From positions 4,353,361 through 4,417,360 of the forward strand of contig OX422190.1 of assembly GCA_949130485.1 (NCBI GenBank): DNA of 64,000 nucleotides. The letters run 5' to 3'. Position numbers and translations under genes: made by a program. Position 1 is the first letter of the stretch. Every line of letters starts with the position of its first letter. The DNA is from Agelas oroides. Taxonomy: Eukaryota; Porifera; Demospongiae; Agelasida; Agelasidae. Below are positions 621-26,900 of this stretch, one piece after another. The notes beneath the pieces were generated by a model. The model saw nothing but the letters and a program-made list of their open reading frames with translations, was not told where the DNA came from and did no database searches.

Positions 621-924
621 TGTCAGCAAAGTCGAGACCTTACTTCCTTTGCGCAGATCTGGCGTCACTTGTAGTTGCTGTAAGTGAAATGGCACCAGTT
701 TGACCTGTCAAAACTTCAGAACTCCTTTCCTTACTCTTAAGCGAAGGGAGGGCGCCTAGTCAAAACTGTGCAGACATAAATATCTGTGGTGGCCCGGTAG
801 TGTGGTGGCCCGGTAGTGTCAAAAACGACTTTCGCATGTCACATTGAATTCGGCTCCGCAATCGCTAAATTAGATATACGGCATTGCGTTATTCGTAAGT
901 ATACGGTAGCGCGATCGGTCAGTG

Positions 925-1440
925 ATCACCCTGTGCGGTCACCTATCGGAGTGGTGCGGTCTGTGATCTACCTGTGCGGTCACCGATCGGAGTGGTGCGG
1001 TCTGTGATCACCCCGTGCGGTCACCGATCGAGGTTGTGCGGTCTGTGATCACCCTGTGCGGTCACCGATCGGAGTGGTGCGGTCTGTGATCACCCCGTGC
1101 GGTCACCGATCGAGGTTGTGCGGTCTGTGATCACCCTGTGCGGTCACCGATCGGAGTGGTGCGGTCAGTGATCACCCTGTGCGGTCACCGATCGGAGTGG
1201 TGCGATCTGTGATCTACCTGTGCGGTCACCGATCGAGGTTGTGCGGTCTGTGATCACCTTGTTCGGTCACCGATCACTCAGTGCGCTCACCGATCTGCCC
1301 TGTGCGGTCACCGATCACTCAGTGCGGTCACCGATCTGCCCTGTGCGGTCACCGATCACTCTGTGCGGTCACCGAACAGGGTAGATCGGTGAGCGCACGC
1401 TAAGATCGGTGACCGCACAGGGCAGATCGGTGACCACACA
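925..1440. repeat. Left array of element 1: ~41-bp dimers of ~20-bp monomers
   Basis: Alternating monomers share the core GTGCGGTC, one followed by ACCGATCGGAG and the other by TGTGATCACC. Together they make a repeat of about 41 bp. After about 1270 a second monomer pair appears (ACCGATCACTCA and ACCGATCTGCCC), the same pair that dominates element 2. At about 1376 the orientation inverts. The unit holds the near-palindrome CGGTCACCG, which could be a protein-binding site. There is no convincing reading frame. Confidence 0.9.
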
Positions 1441-1949
1441 GGTAGGGTATCCAACCTGAAATATGAAAATGTGCGCATTGATTCCAAAACAGTGGTTTTT
1501 ATAAGAGCTAACCCAGGTAAGAAAAAAACTACAGAAGGATCGGGTTCGAATGTCAATTTTATTCGGAAACAGTGCACTTTTCCGGAAGTGGTAAGTCCCG
1601 CAAAATGGTACGTGACCAATATCAAACCATGGGCCTAGTTATCTCCCAAGAAACTTACCCTCACAGACCTAATGTATAACTCACTGCCATGTTTAAAGTA
1701 GCCTCGCTGGCAGTGGTCAGTGGTCTAGGAACGAAATAATTTTACCGGTTACGGCGAACTTAAAATTTTGGTCACGTGCCACTTTTCGGAATTTACCACT
1801 TCCGGAAAAGTGCACCGATCCCAAAAGAAATGACATGCGAACCCAATCCGTCTGTGGTTTCTTTCTTACCTGGGTTGGCTCTTATGAAAACCACTGTTTT
1901 GGAACCAATGCGCACACTTTCGTATTTCAGGTTGGACACCCTAACACAG
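1437..1949. mobile_element. Inner inverted-repeat element inserted in array 1
   Basis: Bases 1444-1625 and about 1755-1942 are imperfect inverted copies whose outer ends read TAGGGTATCCAACCTGAAAT and, on the opposite strand, TAGGGTGTCCAACCTGAAAT. The element is flanked on both sides by ACACAGG. Removing the element plus one copy of ACACAGG restores a normal array monomer, so this is a real insertion with a 7-bp target duplication. It is about 500 bp long with no transposase. The two open frames here, one on each strand, translate the two arms of the same palindrome and are not genes. Confidence 0.8.
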
Positions 1950-3480
1950 GGCAGATCGGTGACCGCACTGAGTGATCGGTGACCGCACAGGGCAAATCGG
2001 TGAGCGCACGCTAAGATCGGTGACCGCACAGGGCAGATCGGTGACCGCACAGGGTGATCACAGACCGCACAACCTCGATCGATGACCGCACAGGTAGATC
2101 ACTGACCGCACAACCTCGATCGGTGACCGCACAGGGTGATCACACACCGCACCACTCCGATCGGTGACCGCACAGGGTGATACTGACCGCACCACTCCGA
2201 TCGGTGACCGCACAGGTAGATCACTGACCGCACCACACCGATCGGTGACCGCACAGGGTGATCACAGACCGCACAACGTCGATCGGTGACCGCACAGGTA
2301 GATCACTGACCACACAACCTCGATCGGTGACCGCACAGGGTGATCACAGACAGCACACTCCGATCGGTGACCGCACAGGGTGATCACTGACCTCACCACT
2401 CCGATCGGTGACCGCACAGGTAGATCACTGACCGCACCAAACCGATCGGTGACCGCACAGGGTGATCACAGACCGCACAACCTCGATCGGTGACCGCACG
2501 GGGCGATCACAGACCGCACCACTCCGATCGGTGACCGCACAGGTAGATCACTGACCGCACCACACCGACCGGTGACCGCACAGGGTGATCACAGACCGCA
2601 CAACCTCGATCGATGACCGCACAGGTAGATCACTGACCGCACAACCTCGATCGGTGACCGCACAGGGTGATCACAGACCGCACCACTCCGATCGGTGACC
2701 GCACAGGTAGATCACAGACCGCACCACTCCGATCGGTGACCGCACGGGGTGATCACAGACCGCACCACTCCGATCGGTGACCGCACAGGGTGATCACAGA
2801 CCGCACCACTCCGATCGGTGACCGCACAGGTAGATCACTGACCGCACAACGCCGATCGGTGACCGCACAGGCTGATCACAGACCGCACAACCTCGATCGA
2901 TCACCGCACAGGTAGATCACTGACCGCACAACCTCGATCGGTGACCGCACAGGGTGATCACAGACCGCACCACTCCGATCGGTGACCGCACAGGTAGATC
3001 ACTGACCGCACCACACCGATCGGTGACCGCACAGGGTGATCACAGACCGCACAACCTCGATCGATGACCGCACAGGTAGATCACTGACCGCACAACCTCG
3101 ATCGGTGACCGCACAGGGTGATCACAGACCGCACAACCTCGATCGGTGACCGCACGGGGTGATCACAGACCGCACCACTCCGATCGGTGACCGCACAGGG
3201 TGATCACAGACCGCACAACCTCTATCGATGACCGCACAGGTACGGGGTGATCACAGACCGCACCACTCCGATCGGTGACCGCACAGGTAGATCACTGACC
3301 GCACCACACCGATCGGTGACCGCACAGGGTGATCACAGACCGCACAACCTCGATCGATGACCGCACAGGTAGATCACTGACCGCACAACCTCGATCGGTG
3401 ACCGCACAGGGTGATCACAGACCGCACAACCTCGATCGGTGACCGCACCACTCCGATCGGTGACCGCACAGGGTGATCAC
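1945..3480. repeat. Right array of element 1, reverse orientation
   Basis: About 1.5 kb of the same ~41-bp dimers in reverse orientation (GATCGGTGACCGCAC alternating with ACTGACCGCAC or ACAGACCGCAC), roughly 37 dimers. The array is three times longer than the left one, so the palindrome is lopsided. Variation between dimers (CCTCGATCG, CCACTCCGATCG and CCACACCGATCG types) occurs in a higher-order order suggestive of unequal exchange. Confidence 0.9.
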
Positions 3481-3600
3481 TGACCGATCGCGCTACCGTA
3501 TATTTACGAATAACGCAATGCCGTATATCTAATTTAGCGATTGAGGAGCCGAATTCAATGTGACATGCGAAAGTCGTTTTTGACACTACCGGGCCACCAC

Positions 3601-3728
3601 AAACATCAACTATTATCAAAAGCGACAGTACACTACCAGCATCTCAGCACTTGCACTATGCTGTGAGGCGTAACTCCTGCATGGCCTACTTGCGTGGGTG
3701 GCGGATGAAAAACGCGCGCGCAGGTGAT
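3601..3728. other. Spacer between the two palindromic elements
   Basis: About 130 bp separate the right end of element 1 from the left end of element 2. Apart from a CG-rich stretch near 3710-3722 I see nothing in it: no open frame, no repeat of either element and no obvious target duplication. Confidence 0.5.
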
Positions 3729-3831
3729 TGCCCAGAAGTACAAAAAACGCGTTTTTGAAATCCGGATTTGACGACTTTTCGTTTAATTCGACGTTCGCAA
3801 AAATGAAGTTTACAGTATTATTTACGGTCGC

Positions 3832-4235
3832 CTGGTGCGGTCACCGATCACTCTGTGCGGTCACCGATCTGCCCAGTGCGGTGACCGATCACTCAGTACG
3901 CTCACCGATCTGCCCAGTGCGGTGACCAATCACTCAGTGCGGTCACCGATCTGCTCTGTGCGGTCACCGATCACTCTGTGCGGACACCGATCTGCCTAGT
4001 GCAGTCACCGATCTCTCTGTGCGGTCACCGATCTGCTCTGTGCGGTCACCGATCTTAGGGTGCGCTCACCGATCTGCCTCGTGCGGTCACCGATCACTCT
4101 GTGCGGTCACCGATCTGCTCTGTGCGGTCACCGATCACTCTGTGCGGTCACCGATCTGCTCAGTGCGGTCACCGATCACTCAGTGCGCTCACCGATCTGC
4201 CCTGTGCCGTCACCGATCACTCTGTGCGGTCACCC
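3832..4235. repeat. Left array of element 2, 20-21-bp monomers
   Basis: Alternating 20-21-bp monomers GTGCGGTCACCGATCACTCT and GTGCGGTCACCGATCTGC-type, all in forward orientation, with occasional GTGCGCTC variants. The open frame running through the array is a by-product of its period. Confidence 0.9.
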
Positions 4236-5441
4236 ATAGATAATACAGTACGGACGTGGATATGAAACATTTCCGCATACCTATCTTGTACGTGATGCAT
4301 CATTGCAGCGCGTGTTACGGAGTAGTTTTACAGCTTCCGTATATTTCGAGCTTTGAACAGCATTCGCCATGTTTGAAGGACGAGCACGACGACTGTGTGC
4401 AGCTCTTCTAACGCAGACAGCATCGCTCGCTGGCAGTAGTAATGATGAAGAAATCTATACTGACGAACTAGTTAAAGATGAGGGAGGGAGTGAGCTCGTT
4501 TTAGTACTTAGTAGGGAGGTAAGAGTCATTGAATGGCATGGAGGGATCATCATAGGTCTTAGATACAGGAATTATGTTGTACTTGTATCTTCCAGAGCAG
4601 TGACCACGTGAATGAGGAAATAGATGAAGAGGTCCTGGGAGGTCTGGGATACAGAGACTTTTGTGGATGTTCAACAGTGCATGCGTGTCTGTACATGTGT
4701 ATTGAGAGCTGTGTACATGTATGTACAGTGCATGAATGTTTGTATGCTGAAGTTAATACATGGTTGATTATTATTATTCTTTCTTCTCTTATGGTGCCCT
4801 TGTCCACAAGGCTTGTTGAAGTTGTCATCCATCTGCAGTGATAATTATCACAAAATTGAGCAAAACGCCAAAAGGGCATTATTATTTGAAATTATGCTCA
4901 TCTATTTATAAAATGATTATTTTCCCCCACCACAACAGGCCATGGGCCACATATTTCTTTACAGCAATCAACCATGAGCTCAATAGCTTTGGAAATAATC
5001 TTACACAAAGCAAACGGACTCAAAACCAATTTTGACACATTTGATGACCCATATCTTGTTCATCTTAGTTACAGCACAGTTATCCTGATTTTCTCCTATT
5101 TTCTGATCACAAAATCTCCACAGCTTTTATTCAGAATATGAGCACACAGGCTAATAATCTTACACAAAGATGCCAAAGGTACCAAAATAGGCTATCTCAG
5201 CCTACCTACCCCAAATAGACCATTTCACAGCTATTTATAGGTTGTTCACTTCCTATGTGAGATAATAGTTCGTCGTCTCTCTCTTCTCTTGCAGCTGCCT
5301 GGCACTGTCTTTCGATCCAGATGAAGACAGGACCTCCGCACGTGTACGTTGCAATGATTGCTACAGCGATTCTCCGTATACTCTCCGCGCATCCCTACCG
5401 TTTCACATCCACTGCGTACTGTATTATCTATGGGTCACCGA
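4226..5441. mobile_element. Inner element inserted in array 2, 1.2 kb core
   Basis: The ends CATAGATAATACAGTACG at about 4234 and its inverse ending near 5433 are inverted repeats, followed by a second block of similarity (GTGGATATGAAAC and GTGGATGTGAAAC). GGTCACC flanks both ends, and removing the insert restores a GCGGTCACCGATC monomer, again a 7-bp target duplication. The core carries an ATG-initiated frame at 4369-4611 (starting MFEGRARRLC, acidic middle) and a good splice-acceptor-like tract TTCTCTTGCAG at about 5285. It may therefore hold a fragment of a captured or transposon gene. I do not recognise the peptide. Confidence 0.7.
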
Positions 5442-5790
5442 TCTTAGCGTGCGCTCACCGATCTGCCCTGTGCGGTCACCAATCTTAGCGTGCGCTCACC
5501 GATCTGCCCTGTGCGGTCACCAATCTTAGCGTGCGCTCACCGATCTGCCCTGTGCGGTCACCAATCTTAGCGTGCGCTCACCGATCTGCCCTGTGCGGTG
5601 ACCCACAACTCAGTGCGGTCACCGATCTGTGCGGTGACCGCACAGGGCAGATCGGTGACCGCACTGAGTGATGGTGACCGCACAGGGCAGATCGGTCACC
5701 GCACTGGGCAGATCGGTGAGCGCACTGAGTGATCGGTCACCGCACTGGGCAGATCGGTGAGCGCACCGAGTGATCGGTGACCGCACCAGG
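5435..5790. repeat. Right array of element 2 with orientation switch at about 5636
   Basis: Forward monomers (CACCGATCTTAGCGTGCGCT alternating with CACCGATCTGCCCTGTGCGG) run to about 5636. The sequence then inverts to GGTGACCGCACAGGGCAGATC monomers up to the right outer repeat. The switch point, not the inner element, is the true centre of symmetry. Confidence 0.85.
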
Positions 5791-5891
5791 CTACCGTAAA
5801 TAATACCGTAAACTTTATTTTTGTGAACGTCGAATTAAACGAAAAGTCGTCAAATCCGGATTTCAAAAACGCGTTTTTTGTACTTCTGGGC

Positions 5892-6470
5892 CACCGTACT
5901 AGGCAATTCCCGGCGTGAGTTTGGAAAAGCTAACTGTAGCTCAATGCCCCGTGGCAAGAAAAGGTTAACCCTGGCCCTAACATAACTCTAAACCTCTCGT
6001 GGGTATAGTACCCCTGGTAATTTCGCGGTGCCGTTAATCCGACTCAGTGATCGCTTAGCTGTCCCCAGGGATGCCTTATACTTGCAAACGTCGTAAAAAC
6101 GACGAACGAGCACCGCTATCATACTTTTCACCGTGTTCAGCATGACTATCAAAGGTGACCGGAAATACCCCATTAAATTTATTTTCTCATATTTAGAACA
6201 CAACTTTTTTTTTTCATGTACGTGAACCACCGATTGAAGCGAGTTGTTTGCAGCAAGTAGTACATACTTAGTAGTGTCAGCAACCACTGTTTAGCTAGCT
6301 CTTCATTGTGTACTTTTGGCACTGTGTTCGAGTAAAGTTGTAAGAGTCAAAGAGTGACCGGAATTACCCCGTTTTACCTTACAAAAAATGATGTAATGTA
6401 ATGATGTAAATGGATGATGTAATGATACAAAAGTGTGTCAAAAGTTCAGTTCACTACAAGCACCATAGTG
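5892..6470. other. Non-coding stretch with a short direct repeat
   Basis: No gene is seen. The phrase TGACCGGAAATACCCC near 6157 recurs as TGACCGGAATTACCCC near 6354, about 200 bp apart, and a T-run lies at about 6205. This may be a decayed small element. Confidence 0.4.
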
Positions 6471-17957: not shown

Positions 17958-20900
17958 CTCACCAATGCACAGTCACATGCCAACAGGGATCAGGTGGGCG
18001 TAGGCCCCTCCTCCTTCCACTCCAGGAAAGGGGTGTGATTCAGCAAGGGGGGAGGCTGCCACACCCACCCAACCCCACAGGCACACCTATACACTCACAC
18101 ACACACACAGGCACACACACAGACAGACAAGCACATGCATTAACATACTCCTACCTTCCCAGGACTGAAGGCGTGGCCACCTGCTGTATCATACAAGAGA
18201 CCAGCATGGCTCTAGGTAACCAGGTCTCATTACAGTGCCAACGCAGAGCAGCCCAGTCCAATCACTGTTGGACTTAAAAGCCAAGGCAGCAGATGAGGTG
18301 TACCATACCCAGGCAGCACGTCCGTTACACCAGTCGACCAGGAGCACAGTCTCCAGGTTACATTACAGTTAGGCCCATAGCCTGTAGCCAGGCGCATGGC
18401 CTCAGATTGCAACACAGGCCTGTTGACCAGGAGTATGGCCTCCAGGTCATAGTCCAGTTAGACCAGTAGACCAGGAGCACGGTCTCCAGGTCGCAATGCA
18501 GGGCAGCTGGTAGACCAGGAGTACAGTCTCCAGGTCACAATGCAGTTTAGCTGGCAGACCAGGAGTGCAGTCTCCAGGTCGCAATGCAGTTCGGCTGGTA
18601 GACCAGGAGTACAGTCTCCAGGTCGCAATGCAGTTCAGCTAGTAAACCAGAAGTACAGTCTCCAGGTTGCAATGGAGTTCAGCTGGTAGACCAGGAGTAC
18701 AGTCTCCAGGTCACAATGCAGTTAAACCTGTTGAGGGGGATGGCTTCCAGGTTGTAGTGCAGTTAGGCCAGAGACCAGAAGCACAGTGTCTGTGTCGCAA
18801 AAAAAGGAGCATGGTCTCCAGGTCGCAATGAAGTTCAGCTGGGAGACCAGGAGTGCAGTCTCCAGGTCGCAATGCAGTTAAGCCTGTTGACCAGGGGATG
18901 GCCACCAGGTTGTAGTGCAGTTAGGCCAGTAGACCAGGAGTCCAGTCTCCAGGTCACGAAGAAGTTCAGCCGGCAGACCAGGAGCATGGTCTCCAGGTCG
19001 CAACAAAGTTCAGCTGGTAGACCAGGAGTACAGTCTCCAGGTCACATGCAAGGCAATTAAACCTGTTGACTAGGACTATGGCCTCCAGGTCGTGGCACAG
19101 CAAGGCCAGTAGACAAGGAGCACAGTCTCCACGTTACAATGTGATTTGGCCAGTATAGACTGGGGGCACGGTCTCCAGGTTGCAATGCAACTAGGCAGGT
19201 AGATTATAGGAGCACAGTCTCCAGGTCCAACCAAGAGCAGGCTCTCTGGGTCACAAGGTAGCTAAACCAGCAGGCCAGGAGTATGGCCTCCAAGTGGCGG
19301 TGCAATTAAGCCGGTAGACCAGGAGCATGGTCTCCAGCCCAGCAGCTCACAAAAAAAAAAAAAAAAAAAAAAAGATAATTTATATATGTATATATAATAT
19401 AATTATATTTATTATCCAGTTCATATTTCTACAACAGTATTTTCCTATTCCCGTGCCGTGCAATATCACACGATATTGCACGGGTAGTTATTGCACGGGT
19501 AGTTATTGCACGGGCCCTGAGGCTATATACGCGCGATATCCTAGCAACCAGCGTGCGCTTTAATTAGAACCAGTGCGTTCGAACGGCGAGTTACTCGGGA
19601 CTTGGTGAGAAGAGACACGACGCTGTTGTGGTAATGGATAATAAATACTTTATTACACTCGTTAGCGTGCATATCGCGGTTATTGCACTCGTGGGCTGCA
19701 TTTTCACTCGCCTTCGGCTCGTGAAAATACCACGCCCACTCGTGCAATAACTCGCGATATTGCACGCTAACTCGTGTAATAAGGTATATATATACATAGG
19801 TATATACATATTACCTGTCAATAGGGCAGTGGTCCCCCGGGTAGGTAAGTGCTAGTTGGTCTCCATCGTTCATGAGCCGCCTTCCCCTCCCCTTCCCATT
19901 ATTGCAGGTGTTGTGTTTGGGGTAATACCCCAGCAATCTCTGTTGTCAGATGTGCCAATTTTTGCTGCGGGGGACAAGTCAGGGACTTCCTTGACACTCC
20001 CTAAGGAAGCAGTCCAGCCAATCATGGCGAATATCGCCACTCCACAAGAGTCAGGTTCTTTGGTGAATCTCTGGCTGCCCCAGGCTGTGCAAGGGGGTGC
20101 AGGCAAAACGCAGAAGGTGTGGGTGGGAGATGGCTTCCCCCCTATTCCAAAAAAGGTGCATGAGCGCATTATTGCATGGGAGTATGTTGACTTGGGTGAC
20201 CTGCATCAAGCTGGAACATGGGAAACACTGAATCCAGAGCCAGACCCACAGCAAGTCGTCATCCTGCAAGGGATTGAAGTGGCACGGGCAAAGCGTAGGC
20301 CAATCAAGGACATCTACACCTGGATCCAATGCTTTGCAATATATATGGCAGCCATGGCCAAACATGACCCAGGCTCAATCCCTGAAATGTTGGCCTTCAT
20401 GCTGACAATCATGAAGGCACAGAAAGAGTTCAAGGAGCCAGCCTGGAGGCTGTATGATGTCGCATATAGGGAGAAGGCAGCGGCCACTGGGAACAAAAAA
20501 TGGTCTCAAATAGACCCCTTCCTGTACAACCAGCTTTTTACAGGGAGGGCCAATGAGATAGCCTTCTGTCAACATTGCCACTCAACTACCCACACTTCGG
20601 ATACCTGCAAGGAGGCTCCGCCAAGGAAAAGACCAGCCATAGCCGGAGATAACTCACAGCATCGTGGATGGGACCCTCCACACCCACGTCCATCAGGCCC
20701 AGTATGCTGGCAGTACAACCAGGGCCACTGCTCCTTTCAGCCAAATTGTCGCTTTCGCCATGTTTGCTCAGCCTGCAAACGCCCTCACCCCCTTGTGTAC
20801 TGCCCTAGAGCATCTCGGGGAGGGCCCCAGACCTCAGGTCCAACAGCCCAGAAGGGAGAGAAAGCAAAGGACACAAGGGCCAATATATAATCGCAGCTGA

Positions 20901-23900
20901 TTAGTCACAACACTGGTACTAGGTCACACAAACAGATGTGTCAGTCTGGCAGCATCACTTTTGCTTGTTCGCATTCTATGGTCCAACCCATTGTCTATCC
21001 CATTGTGTTTGTGATCACTGATTGGCTATTCTCATAAAATTTATGACATAAATTGTACAATTGCAACTTGCCTGATCCCCCCCCCCCCCCCCCCCCCCCC
21101 CTCCCCCCCCCCTCCCCTCCTCCATCACCACCACCACACACTGATGGTACCAGTGGCCCAGGAGAAGGACGTGGTACTCCTCCGGCCATCCAAATGGCTC
21201 CCATTGGAAGTACCATGGTCAGCTGCCCTTCTGTCTAACCAAGTGACAGAGCAGGTACCCCAGCATACAGTAAATACTGCACACCTGCTAAAGCTAGAGG
21301 ACTGCTGTCGAACTACCCTGTGGGAGGTTCCAAGCATCCTATCTCAGGTGCACACCCCATTGGTGATAGGGGCGTGGGAGAAAGAGCTGGTCAGCCACCC
21401 AGACCAAGAGAGGGCATCATATCTACTGAACGGCCTGAGGAATGGATTTCGCATCGGGTACAACTACAAGGATAACACTTGCCAGCCTCGCAGACAAAAC
21501 ATGTCTTCAGCAGCCTTACACCCTCAGGTAGTTGAGGAATACCTCTCTAAGGAATGCAGCACAGGTAGGATAGTCGGCCCTCTCCCTCCGCAAGAGTTCC
21601 CTTTTGTGCAGATTAGCCCATTTGGAGTGATCCCCAAATCTACACCAGGAAAATGGAGGTTGATCCTAGATCTGTCATCACCACATGGCAAGAGTGTTAA
21701 TGATGGAATTGATAAGAGACTCTGTTCACTCACATACACCAAGGTGGATGAAGTTGCAAATTATGTCCTGCAGAAAGGAAGGGGTACTCGGCTGGCCAAA
21801 ATTGACATCCAGGAGGCATACAGGGTTGTCCCAGTTCACCCACAGGACCGACTGCTCTTAGGCATGATGTGGGATGACCATCTATATGTGGACACAGCCC
21901 TGCCCTTTGGCCTTCGCTCGGCCCCTAAGATTTTTGATGCACTATCCAGCACCTTCGAATGGGTGTTAAAGGAAAAGGGAGTGTCATTCGTGCGTCATTA
22001 TTTAGATGACTTCATCACGGCAGGACCTCCAGGTACAGAGGAGTGCCAACACAACTTGGCCCCATGCTGGAAGCATGCAACCAACTTGGGGTTCCAACAG
22101 TGGAACATAAGTGTGTGGGGCCTTCAACACAGTTGAAATGGCTAGGAATTTTAATCAATACTGATTCAATGGAGCTTAGCCTCCCACAAGACAAGCTAGA
22201 TCGGCTTTGTTCATTGCTAGACTCAGTAGCTGGCAAGAAATCAATGCCAGTGGAGAAGATGGAATCACTTGTAGGCCACCTCAGTCATGCGTCTGTGGTA
22301 GTAAGACCAGGGCGAAGGTTTATGCGAAATATGTATGGCCTCATGGCAAATGCTAAACGGGGTGGATGGCCTAGAGTCCGCCTCAACAGCGCATTTCAAG
22401 CAGACTTACAATGGTGGCGGGCTTTCATAGTAGCATGGAATGGCTCTTCAATCATTCTGAAGGCCCGTTCCCAAATGCCAGATATCAGGGTATGGTCAGA
22501 TGCTTCAGGGAAGTGTGGGTGCGGGGCGCTGTGGGGAGGCAGCTGGTTTCAGGTCACTTGGGAAAAATATCCCAAAGCCCAGCAGTGGGACATTGCAGCC
22601 AAAGAACTGCTTCCCATAATCCTGGCCGCAGCGATCTGGGGTAAAACCTGGAGCTGCTCCATCGTGCAGTTCAACTGTGACAATGCTGCAGTAGTGTCAG
22701 TAATTTCAGCAGGGAGTGCCAAGGATCCAACATTAATACACCTTCTTCGCTGCTTATTCTTTCTGGAGGCTAGGTACAAATTCCAGGCAGTAGCAGCCCA
22801 TGTACCAGGAGTCCAGAATACTTTGGCCGATGCCTTGTCGCGTGATAATGTGCCTCTCTTTTTCTGTCTGGCACCACAGGCATCCCGAACCCCATCTCCA
22901 ATACCAGAAGAACTGGTCAACACTCTGGTTACCCCCAGACACTGGACTCACGAAACATGGATCAGCTGGTTCAGCACTATCTCCGGTGCTCCCTGGCACC
23001 TTCCACCAAGCGAGCCTATGCCGCGGGCCAACGTAGGTACCTAGATTTTTGCACTAAGGCTGGCCTCTCCCCCTTCCCAACGGATGAGAAGAAATTGTGT
23101 AGCTTTGCAGCAACTCTTGGTCATGAGGGCTTGAAAGCCCAAACAATAAAAGGATATTTATCAGCAATTCGTAACAGGCAAATCATGCTACAATTAGGCA
23201 ATCCTTTCCAAGTCGGCATGCCAGTTTTGGAGTATGTCCTGAGGGGTATTAAAATGGATCAAGCCAAACATCACCCCTCGAAGGCCAAGGAACGCCTCCC
23301 CATTACTCCAGCCATTCTGCTGAGGCTAAGGGAGGTGTGGGAATCTAAGGCCACAGATCCCACCAACATTATGCTGTGGGCGGCTTGCTGCACTGCCTTT
23401 TTTGGATTTCTTCGATCAGGAGAAATCACCACACCCTCACTTAAAGAGTATGACACAAATGTGCACTTAAGCGTTGGTGACATCTCTCTTGATAGTACTC
23501 ACAACCCGACAGTGGCACAGGTGAGGATCAAGGCATCCAAAACAGATCCGTTCCGCCAAGGCATATCAATTTTCCTGGGACGAACTGATACCCCCTTATG
23601 CCCCATAGTGGCCTTGACAGCTTACATGGCAATTCGAGGTGGCTCTCGGGGTCCATTTTTCTGCTTCCCGGATCATCAGCCTCTTTCAAGGCAGCGGCTT
23701 GTGGAACACCTACGCAGAGCTCTTCAAGCAACTGGGCTGGACCCTATGAAGTTTGCGGGCCACAGCTTTAGGATAGGAGCGGCCACTACGGCAGCAGCTC
23801 ATGGCCTAGAGGATTCCCTCATCAGAACACTGGGAAGATGGCAGAGCTCTGCCTACCTGCGCTACCTCCAGATCCCTCGGGAACAACTCGCCAAAATTTC

Positions 23901-26900
23901 TCGGAATTTAAGTGCCTAATATCAGGCGGTCATTTCTGAAGTTTGTCAATTTAGATATTACCAGTCTAATGTTTGGTATATAGTGCCTGTATCTGTCGCA
24001 TGTACATGTGTACTTTGTGTCTAATAGGGTTTCTCTCAAGGGTTCATTATGACACGTCTGATTGCATCTCTAGTAAGAAGAGGAGCTGTGGGTGAGAATA
24101 AGGTTGCTTGGGAGGAAGTATTCCTTTGGCGGGTGCTGGGGCAAGGGGTGGCCCCAGCATGACCCATGCCAAGCAACCTCAATATTAGGGTTATTCTAGG
24201 GGAGAAGGGTTTTATACCCTTAGCTCTCGCTGTGCTACCCTAACCCATCCTCCCAGATCCATCAAACAAGTTGTTGAAAGGGTCTGGTAGTAATGGTGAC
24301 CTCCAAGAATGTTAATAGGTGAACAGGGTAGGAAAGGGTTTCCAGAGTTTGCCATTCTTAACACAAAAGACGGAAAGAGCAAGGAGGTAAACCAAGCTGG
24401 GAAACATGTTTGCATACTATGGAGTAACTTCACTTGATGCAACAGTATAGATGGTTTTCATGGGGCGTGGCTTCACTTCCGGAGGGCAAGAGTCGGGGTC
24501 TGTGTTCAGTGCATGCAGCTATGTGCAAAATAAAAAATATGGGCTAGTAAGCGCTACATCGAGTCCCATTAGTGCTGAAAGATAAAAGAAGCTGCTTCTC
24601 TCAAGGTAAAACGTCCACTGTACAGCTGCCTCTTGATCACGCGTTTGCCCTCCGGAAGTATATAGGATGCTTACTTGACATTTGGAAACCATCTATATCC
24701 TAAGCATACTAATGACTTGTGAGAGCTAGACTGCAACAAGAACCCTGAGGCATATAAAGAAGGTAACATTTTCTGAACAACTGGCCAATGAACAAATGTA
24801 GACAGTTTGTGGCAACAGCCATCACTGTTGTGTGCACACGGTTGAATTACTATAGCCAAAGATTGCAAGTTATGTGAACACATGCACATGTACATAATAG
24901 ACATTGGCAAGCAAGTATAACTCCAGATATTCACTTGAGTGAACAGGGCAGTGATAAATTTCTCGAATTTTAGGCAATCCTGTCATCTAGAATTTGGTTG
25001 ATCAGCAAAGTGCGACTGCACTGTTCTAGTGGCGAACTTGTGAGCAACATGTACTGTAGAAATGTCATACATCTTTAGCCTTGTTGCTAGGCCTCCCCAT
25101 TTTTTGTTCTTCGGTTTGCATTCATACACGGAAGCGGAAGAGCGCTCTTCCGCTTCCGTGTATTATACTGAATGCAAACCGAAGAACAAAAACCGGGGGA
25201 GGCCTGGGAACGAGGCTAATACATCTTATAGTCTGTCATTAGTAACTCACTTTAGCCTCTTGCTCAGCACCTGGCTCCAGCTCCCAGGAGCGGCACACAA
25301 GTCAACCACACGCTTTACACCTGATTACGATAAAGAACGCCTTAATCACAATCACTTTGGGCTTTAGCATTGCCAACACCTGTATATGATTATACACTAT
25401 ATATAGTCTTTAACCACACCCCCTTGCACAGAAGAGACGTGCTAGTTGTCACCATGAAATAAAATAACACGGGTTGCTCCATGCCTTACAAAATGACAAT
25501 CACCGTAAAATCAGGTGGGTAGGGGTTGACAACGTACAATTGATGAAGTGCTGACTGTATCTGTACTTCTAGAAAAGCTACAAACATGGGACAGGAATTA
25601 GCAGGCAAGAAAATAACACTAGGTCTAAAATATACCGCAACTAATATGTTCTCATACAACTGTATGCTAACAATATTACATGCATTTATTAGCACCCCAT
25701 GAATATAAGCACATCACGATTATAAGCACCCATTTTGTCTCAAGACTACTAACTTTGAAAATAGGCACCAGTGTTTAAGTGTTCGGAGTTTATGGTATAT
25801 GCAATATTGTATAGGGACTGTGTGAGTGGAAACGTGTGTTGTGTACATCATCAGTAACCACAGTGACCATATATACTGGTACAGTCACTTGCAAGCATCT
25901 CTAATTATATTCCAGTAAAATGTTTAAAAGAATCTGCCCCCATCAACAGCACAGTTTATGAAGCACAACTTGAGGAAGGAGAAACATAGACCTTTTATGT
26001 GGCAAATATTTCATGATATTCATAGCAATATATATCTGGCCCTATTGGCTACGCTCCTTGGTGGGATAGAGTTACACTGTGTTCTGTGGGAATAGGCAAG
26101 TTTGTAGTATACTCCAAAGAACTGGTGGCCCTCATGGAGTTCTCTCTGCTAACATACGGTACCTTAGCGTAATTGGGGCAAGCGTGAGCGAGCCCACACT
26201 AGTGAGTTGAATTGCGATTTTTCATATATTATTATTATTATTATTATTATTATCTGTCGTACGTCGTTCTGTATGTTTTTGACGCTGTGATTTAACGTGA
26301 TAGCCGTGGGCTGCATGCGGACAGTAAGTAAGATTTTCGTACAACTTGGCAGCCAGCTAGCTCCAAGGTGACTTTGAAGATGAAGCTTGTGAAGACAGCC
26401 AGGAAAAACAGCTGGAGCATGCGCACTTATTGAACAAAGGATAGCCTAGAAGTTGTGTTTGCAGTGACATTCAGGATAGGCAGCTGGAGCGTGAGTAACG
26501 CGGCAGAGATGCTCCTTCAATTCATGGCTGATGCATGGCAAATCCCATCTGCTATTTCTCTAAGATGCCTCAAGTAAGGACTATGCACAATAAACCAGGC
26601 TGTGTTCAGTCTTAGCCTACAGTTAGCCAGAGTTGCTGCTTAGGTATGGCTACTCCACGACAAGCTAGTCTCTGCTCTAAGCTATTGAGCACTTTTGTAG
26701 ACAGTAGAGTGACAACCCTTTGTTCAGCTACACGCCACGGCCTGTGTGCTGTGATCTGATACTTCACTGAAAAGCCTTAACTTGCTCATGCTTGCCCCTC
26801 AATGTTCTACATTCGCCTAGTATAGTACCTTCTCCTGTTCTGATATTTTTCGAGCCTTCCTGAGCAACGTTCAGATACTGCCTCCATAGAGCACAATACA

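Follow-up and report, generated by a model that had tools for sequence, protein, structure and literature searches.

FB (Foldback) and the sea urchin TU elements carry large inverted repeats made of short tandem units. FB is grouped with the Mutator-like NOF, with target-site duplications of 9 bp, and the P superfamily, which includes Galileo, has CA..TG ends and duplications of 7 or 8 bp. The inverted repeats of Galileo contain several transposase-binding sites, and binding by the THAP domain was found; for Foldback and Phantom, the same paper states that transposase binding to the tandem repeats was untested (PMC3688188). In Drosophila virilis, the foldback element Tetris and the miniature inverted-repeat transposable element (MITE) DAIBAM share their ends and presumably one transposase (PMC4079207). 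IS3EU elements have TA..TA termini and target duplications that usually are 6 bp long, and GingerRoot elements have 6-bp duplications and termini that are mostly TA..TA and occasionally TG..CA; both are described as lacking an HHCC zinc finger ahead of the core (PMC10045372). The IS3EU elements of rust fungi end in TAYGG..CCRTA and have 6-bp duplications (PMC12730594). We analyzed a 64,000-nucleotide stretch of the genome of the sponge Agelas oroides (the window; C8:4353361-4417360 in a 259-Mb assembly of 141 contigs, numbered C1, C2, and so on), which contains two adjacent palindromic elements at its left side. We consider these likely to be non-autonomous foldback transposons of the IS3EU/GingerRoot kind, moved by an integrase-type transposase, with arrays of short monomers to which this transposase or a helper would bind. 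We recognized no earlier foldback or short-array IS3EU element in a search of open-licence papers, and IS3EU is not mentioned in PMC11136912.

A sequence-only reading of the window had reported two neighboring palindromic elements at 785 to 5891, filled with a short monomer. The monomer core, GTGCGGTC, occurs 111 times on the two strands of the window, compared with 0.70 expected and a maximum of 3 in 100 shuffles, which bears out this description. The region 785-5891 holds 108 of these occurrences (35 forward and 73 reverse). The left limit of 785 held, and the right limit moved slightly, as element 2 ends at 5898.

Element 1 occupies 785-3601. Its terminal inverted repeats, at 801-925 on the plus strand (tip TGTGGTGGCCCGGTAGT) and 3477-3601 on the minus strand, are identical in 122 of 125 aligned columns. 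The 16-bp outer part of the left tip is present twice (785-800 and 801-816, both on the plus strand), and when measured from the outer copy the element is flanked by AATATC (779-784) and AACATC (3602-3607), a target-site duplication with one mismatch. The left array (933-1370, plus strand) has 22 monomers, type I followed by type II. The orientation switches once, near 1370-1391, and the inverted right array starts with 3 type II monomers (1391-1439, minus strand) and continues in its main part with 74 monomers (1961-3469, minus strand). Between these two parts lies an unrelated nested MITE (1445-1941) with a TA duplication at 1443-1444 and 1942-1943. Element 2 extends from about 3730, where its outermost left tip is degenerate and without a target duplication, to 5898. 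Its terminal inverted repeats (3730-3834, plus strand; 5784-5898, minus strand, tip TACGGTGGCCCAGAAGT) align over about 108 bp (3728-3836 and 5784-5891), with identity in 103 of 110 columns. The left array comprises 20 type II monomers (3835-4231) and, beyond a nested transposon (4235-5432; CA..TG ends, with GGTCACC at 4228-4234 and 5433-5439), 10 more (5435-5636), all on the plus strand. The orientation switches at about 5632, and the inverted right array has 8 monomers (5636-5786, minus strand). All arrays point inward.

Each element therefore has its own outer inverted repeats and a single flip of orientation, as the sequence-only reading had said. That reading also placed the same 20- to 21-bp monomers in both elements. 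The spacing was borne out: of the 130 window intervals that measure 15 to 26 bp, 122 are 20 or 21 bp long (a count that leaves out six shorter intervals of 5, 7, and 13 bp). The monomer types differ in part between the elements. The unique DNA within each element is a nested insertion, and with these removed both elements consist of inverted repeat, array, flipped array, and inverted repeat. We rejected the unique inner DNA as the elements' own gene content, as the same DNA is present in other surroundings.

The tips of the two elements, TGTGG..CCACA in element 1 and TACGG..CCGTA in element 2, are related and non-identical, as had been noted, and define families 1 and 2, respectively; a third family has TATGG..CCATA. 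A genome search with the element 1 end gave 36 matches (17 pairs, 1 single end, and 1 relic at 73% identity), and the element 2 end gave 30 (12 pairs and 6 single ends). Thus, ends paired by coordinates are present at 29 genome places, and the possibility that the ends occur nowhere else, which would have spoken against a mobile family, was excluded. We took 28 stretches by place, 18 from family 1 (including the relic, L088) and 10 from family 2. L071 to L087 are the other 17 family 1 stretches, L089 to L098 are the 10 family 2 stretches, and L099 is a family 3 copy. When read by eye, 13 of the 17 other family 1 stretches and 9 of the 10 other family 2 stretches had the plain array-palindrome form; those departing from it were L076, L083, L086, L087, and L092. 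The relic (L088:2940-3120; C7:1787653) is old and has a family 1-like end at 73% identity without an array. In L087 (C6:1823438), whose left inverted repeat is tipless, a family 1 tip sits 584 bp farther out (C6:1822854), which is suggestive of an insertion that separated the tip from its inverted repeat.

Target duplications were scored by script in 30 copies (the stretches other than L088, the two window copies, and one family 3 copy). Five with one end lacking a recognizable tip (L083, L086, L087, L092, and L098) were excluded, leaving 25. An exact 6-bp duplication was observed in 16 of the 25, and one with at most one mismatch was observed in 18. In a control pairing left flanks with the right flanks of other copies, the corresponding figures were 4/600 and 10/600. 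Exact duplications of other lengths were absent (0/25 for 4, 5, and 8 bp) or single (1/25 for 7 bp). Two pairs of copies, L084/L085 and L095/L096, have identical flanks, so the independent count of 6-bp duplications is 14 of 23. Like window element 1, L071 has a doubled left tip, with CTTACT duplicated outside it. A single 41-bp gap and three substitutions separate L095 (C12:4173049) from L096 (C12:3912000); the stretch was duplicated, and its array length shifted by two monomers.

The string GGTGGCCC(A/G)G(A/T)AGT is common to the tips of all three families. The tip pattern GGTGGCCCRGWAGT has 161 matches in the genome, compared with none for the reversed pattern. Among the 100 tip places listed of these 161, 68 have the spelling GGTGGCCCAGTAGT, including the family 1 end L086 and the relic L088. 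L099, a copy with this spelling, begins with the tip TATGGTGGCCCAGTAGTGCAC and is flanked by a duplication of CGAGAG. Its subterminal TCCGCA repeats are mostly 11 or 22 bp apart, its inner DNA measures about 1.1 kb, and the longest stop-to-stop frame of the copy is 98 amino acids; a genome search with L099 was scored for the best 40 of 171 candidate places. Three large tip pairs are candidates for autonomous copies: C7:7655923-7663789, which includes a third-family copy, C3:4223590-4232243, and C1:7859846-7865816.

The sequence-only reading had found no named superfamily to which the elements could be assigned. The families probably belong to IS3EU/GingerRoot, as the TA..TA or TG..CA termini, the 6-bp duplications, and an integrase-type gene (described below) point there; the fit of tips and duplications to published IS3EU/GingerRoot elements is close. 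Membership in the P superfamily, with Galileo, was rejected, as exact duplications of 7 bp occurred in 1 and of 8 bp in 0 of the 25 copies and the tips begin with TG or TA. Membership in the Mutator-like FB-NOF group was also rejected; the best 9-bp match was 7/9, in a single copy. IS256 and MuDR jointly are ascribed duplications of 4 to 10 bp (PMC10045372), so duplication length alone cannot exclude every Mutator-like element; the integrase-type gene speaks against such an element.

In order to find candidate transposase genes, the genome was searched with the Pfam domain rva_4 (integrase core domain); the best 150 of 223 candidates were scored, and 153 matches were reported. At L100, a third-family end (TATGGTGGCCCAGTAGT) is followed by a TCCGC array with mostly 11-bp spacing and then by inward-reading exons 0.8 to 1.4 kb from the tip. 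The joined exons match rva_4 with an E value of 3.3e-14. A search with these exons also matched C2:17729412, which is 4.9 kb inside a lone family 1 end at C2:17724524 (L086). In L086 and L101, a family 1 end is followed by an array of type I whose last monomers are degenerate. After some 3.9 kb of other DNA comes a gene that is split into exons and that matches rva_4 once these are joined (E value of 1.2e-27). The acidic D, D, and E residues of this gene product were located by eye, at what we take to be the positions expected of integrases. Thus, an intron-split rva_4 gene lies inside one family 3 end and one family 1 end, with one end read in each case and the same gene polarity relative to the end. 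For family 2, no rva_4 gene was found beside an end when the 100 tip places were compared with 112 rva_4 places. Six open frames taken from unique DNA within or next to the copies were scanned with Pfam, and none matched a transposase. The analysis supports the suggestion of a non-autonomous family with giant subterminal arrays, together with many dispersed copies, clear target duplications, and transposase genes next to like ends. The elements probably owed their mobility to an IS3EU-like, integrase-type transposase.

The array word GTGCGGTCACCGATC occurs 639 times in the genome, compared with 0 for its reversal, and 638 of these occurrences fall within the window and the 36 loci that were counted. 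Across the families (with the duplicate L085 included), 20- and 21-bp spacings alternate in 1,183 of 1,275 neighboring pairs. The monomer can be written GTGCGGTC-N3-GATC. Conservation was scored at 1,190 sites lying between cores 41 bp apart. Core positions were judged at the 1,129 sites with GATC present, and all other positions at the 1,181 sites with the core present. Over all sites of families 1 and 2, the core was conserved at 89 to 100%, GATC at 98 to 100%, and the linker at 34 to 62%; in family 1 alone the values were 94 to 100%, 98 to 100%, and 37 to 74%. Family 1 arms begin with type I monomers and go on to type II, and the switch follows the same kind of monomer in 24 of 26 two-type arms (counted by eye, with L086 omitted). 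Family 2 arrays are of type II, except for stray assignments where the orientation flips or a nested insertion adjoins. This layered order suggests one ancestral palindrome with later expansion and loss. There is a weak indication that a TGCGG core is common to all three families; its orientation relative to the tip in families 1 and 2 is the opposite of that in family 3.

It had been proposed that a period close to two helical turns puts every core on the same face of the DNA. At 10.25 bp per turn, phase coherence was 0.98 and 0.99 in two arrays, and the longest array reached 0.61. With a helical repeat of 10.5 bp it fell to 0.08 to 0.12, leaving all arrays out of phase, as a mean spacing of 20.5 bp drifts at that pitch. 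The proposal therefore fails as a general statement: adjacent sites face nearly alike, and entire arrays do so only with DNA at about 10.25 bp per turn. The third-family repeats preferred a period of 10.6 to 11.4 bp, with best values of 0.78, 0.80, and 0.92, compared with 99% levels of 0.77 and 0.68 for random sets of similar counts.

By analogy with Galileo, where the THAP domain binds to such repeats, the arrays are most likely docking sites for transposase. In this scheme, the shared tip T(A/G)(T/C)GGTGGCCC(A/G)G(A/T)AGT would be cut by an integrase-type transposase whose gene lies elsewhere in the genome, and the same enzyme would join the tip to target DNA at a stagger of 6 bp. The inward-pointing arrays, offering a site every 20 or 21 bp, would gather the transposase or a helper protein, which would help to pair the two ends. 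Loss of the body between the arrays would have brought them together head to head, and array length would have changed afterwards, the one observed case being the two-monomer step of 41 bp. We also entertain, with considerable doubt, an extension of this scheme. The IS3EU transposase or helper might assemble in long, ordered rows over dozens of sites set two turns (20.5 bp) apart or, in the third family, roughly one turn (11 bp) apart, so that ends would be recognized through a filament or phased platform. Elements reduced to little more than the platform might then have out-competed longer ones and come to predominate among families 1 and 2 in this genome.

Several observations weigh against the IS3EU/GingerRoot assignment with transposase-binding arrays. 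In the automatic count, 7 of the 25 copies had no 6-bp duplication; two of these gain one from the doubled tip and one has 7 bp, and L072, L079, L082, and window element 2 had none. Only one pair of tip and rva_4 gene within 2 kb (L100) emerged from 100 listed tips of 161 and 112 rva_4 matches of 153, which implies that the rva_4 genes compared are mostly from other families. At another tip, C2:12065683, the rva_4 exon matches 0.2 to 1.3 kb inside are scrambled and on the opposite strand. No complete copy with two family 1 or family 2 ends and a transposase was present among the stretches read. L086 has a single end, and with some 3.9 kb between its array and the first recognized transposase exon it could be two adjacent insertions. 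That the rva_4 proteins are IS3EU transposases is itself something we infer. The contrast in conservation is weaker in family 2 (core, 66 to 99%; GATC, 92 to 100%; linker, 49 to 71%), and linker diversity may arise partly from the history of monomer types rather than from absent constraint.

It is possible, although we think it the lesser prospect, that the ends are IS3EU and the arrays have no role in transposition, being satellite-like tracts that grew by slippage and unequal exchange in a tolerant MITE, an origin also put forward for the 220-bp Tetris repeats. Array lengths do vary widely between copies, and L095 and L096 have the same flanks and differ by the 41-bp gap and three substitutions. 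Tetris repeats have seeded satellite arrays (PMC4079207), and oyster satellites of 690 and 129 bp resemble IS3EU elements and are annotated DNA/IS3EU (PMC8268682). Against a neutral origin, the array word is almost confined to the elements, the family 1 core and GATC are far better conserved than the linker, and arrays are also found at L086 and L100, the ends that bear transposase genes. A bipartite site that is conserved and evenly spaced would suit any sequence-specific protein, and the arrays might instead bind a host transcription factor or chromatin protein that shelters or silences the element or gives it a promoter. This we regard as unlikely, as only 1 of the 639 exact array words lies outside the counted loci and a host protein would need other sites.

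Another superfamily might have mobilized the elements, 6-bp duplications being reported for hAT6 (PMC12730594) and Polinton (PMC10045372). This is improbable, as TA..TA or TG..CA tips and the TAYGG motif agree with IS3EU and the gene beside the ends is of the integrase-type rva_4 kind. An assembly fold-back, for which near-perfect palindromes are a known form of artifact, can be set aside almost entirely: paired ends recur at 29 places, the flanks differ among the 30 scripted copies apart from the two same-flank pairs, target duplications are present, and nested insertions occupy one arm only. The sequence-only reading had named fold-back as a possible explanation, and the dispersed copies and target duplications exclude it.

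The nested insertions belong to families of their own. The MITE at 1445-1941 is 95 to 100% identical at 40 scored places, including its own, with tips GGGTGTCCAACCTG or near it; judged by this identity, the family is a recent burst. The transposon at 4235-5432 has copies elsewhere without arrays (L062 to L068), and of the copies read, three have a 7-bp duplication (two exact and one, L064, with one mismatch), which was not found in L062. This transposon also matches a gene-like cluster (C1:2388429-2561215) in blocks (query about 14-429, 427-541, and 540-629) that are hundreds of bases apart in the cluster and contiguous in the transposon, an arrangement suggestive of captured, spliced gene sequence. 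An element 2 copy carries another insertion of foldback-like form (L092:310-1100), which is unrelated and has arrays of GTCAATTCCCACTTT; one frame there, without a Pfam match, presumably resembles a Mutator-like transposase. L087:820-1420 is a nested element with inverted ends GCCTCGTACCCAGGCCACGTGG, and one L087 frame, also without a Pfam match, resembles what we take to be a RecQ helicase. Just left of element 1, a 32-bp tandem repeat (GAATTTGGCATCCCCATGCAAAATTCCCTAGA) occupies 497-620. Farther along the window, 19856-23919 encodes a reverse transcriptase (RVT_1; E value of 4.5e-9) followed by a tyrosine-recombinase frame with phage integrase domains, and it looks like a DIRS-type retroelement.

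The tips, duplications, candidate transposase genes, and conserved bipartite motif are available in one genome, which makes the binding hypothesis directly testable. If the assignment is correct, the foldback form extends to an integrase-type superfamily. The elements have the structure of the foldback class, with long inverted repeats, internal tandem repeats, and little between them. As in FB and TU, the large inverted repeats consist of short tandem units; unlike FB, the duplications are of 6 bp. They also resemble Galileo of Drosophila in having long, internally repetitive inverted repeats. Galileo differs in its P-type transposase with a THAP domain, whereas the elements described here are associated with an integrase-type gene, 6-bp duplications, and 20- to 21-bp monomers by the dozen. 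Tetris likewise has tandem repeats within its inverted repeats, but these are 220 bp long and also form satellite-like arrays (PMC4079207), whereas the monomers here occur almost nowhere outside the elements. Half of TCAST10, a repeat of beetles, has 86% similarity to an IS3EU transposon (PMC5844308). The IS3EU-like satellites of oyster and beetle have long monomers, and the excerpts describing them report no short phased arrays in foldback elements (PMC8268682, PMC5844308). With IS3EU and GingerRoot themselves, the elements share the 6-bp duplications, the TA..TA or TG..CA termini, the TAYGG tips, and, at one end each of families 1 and 3, an adjoining integrase-type gene, and they differ in that the window copies are gene free and consist almost wholly of inverted arrays.

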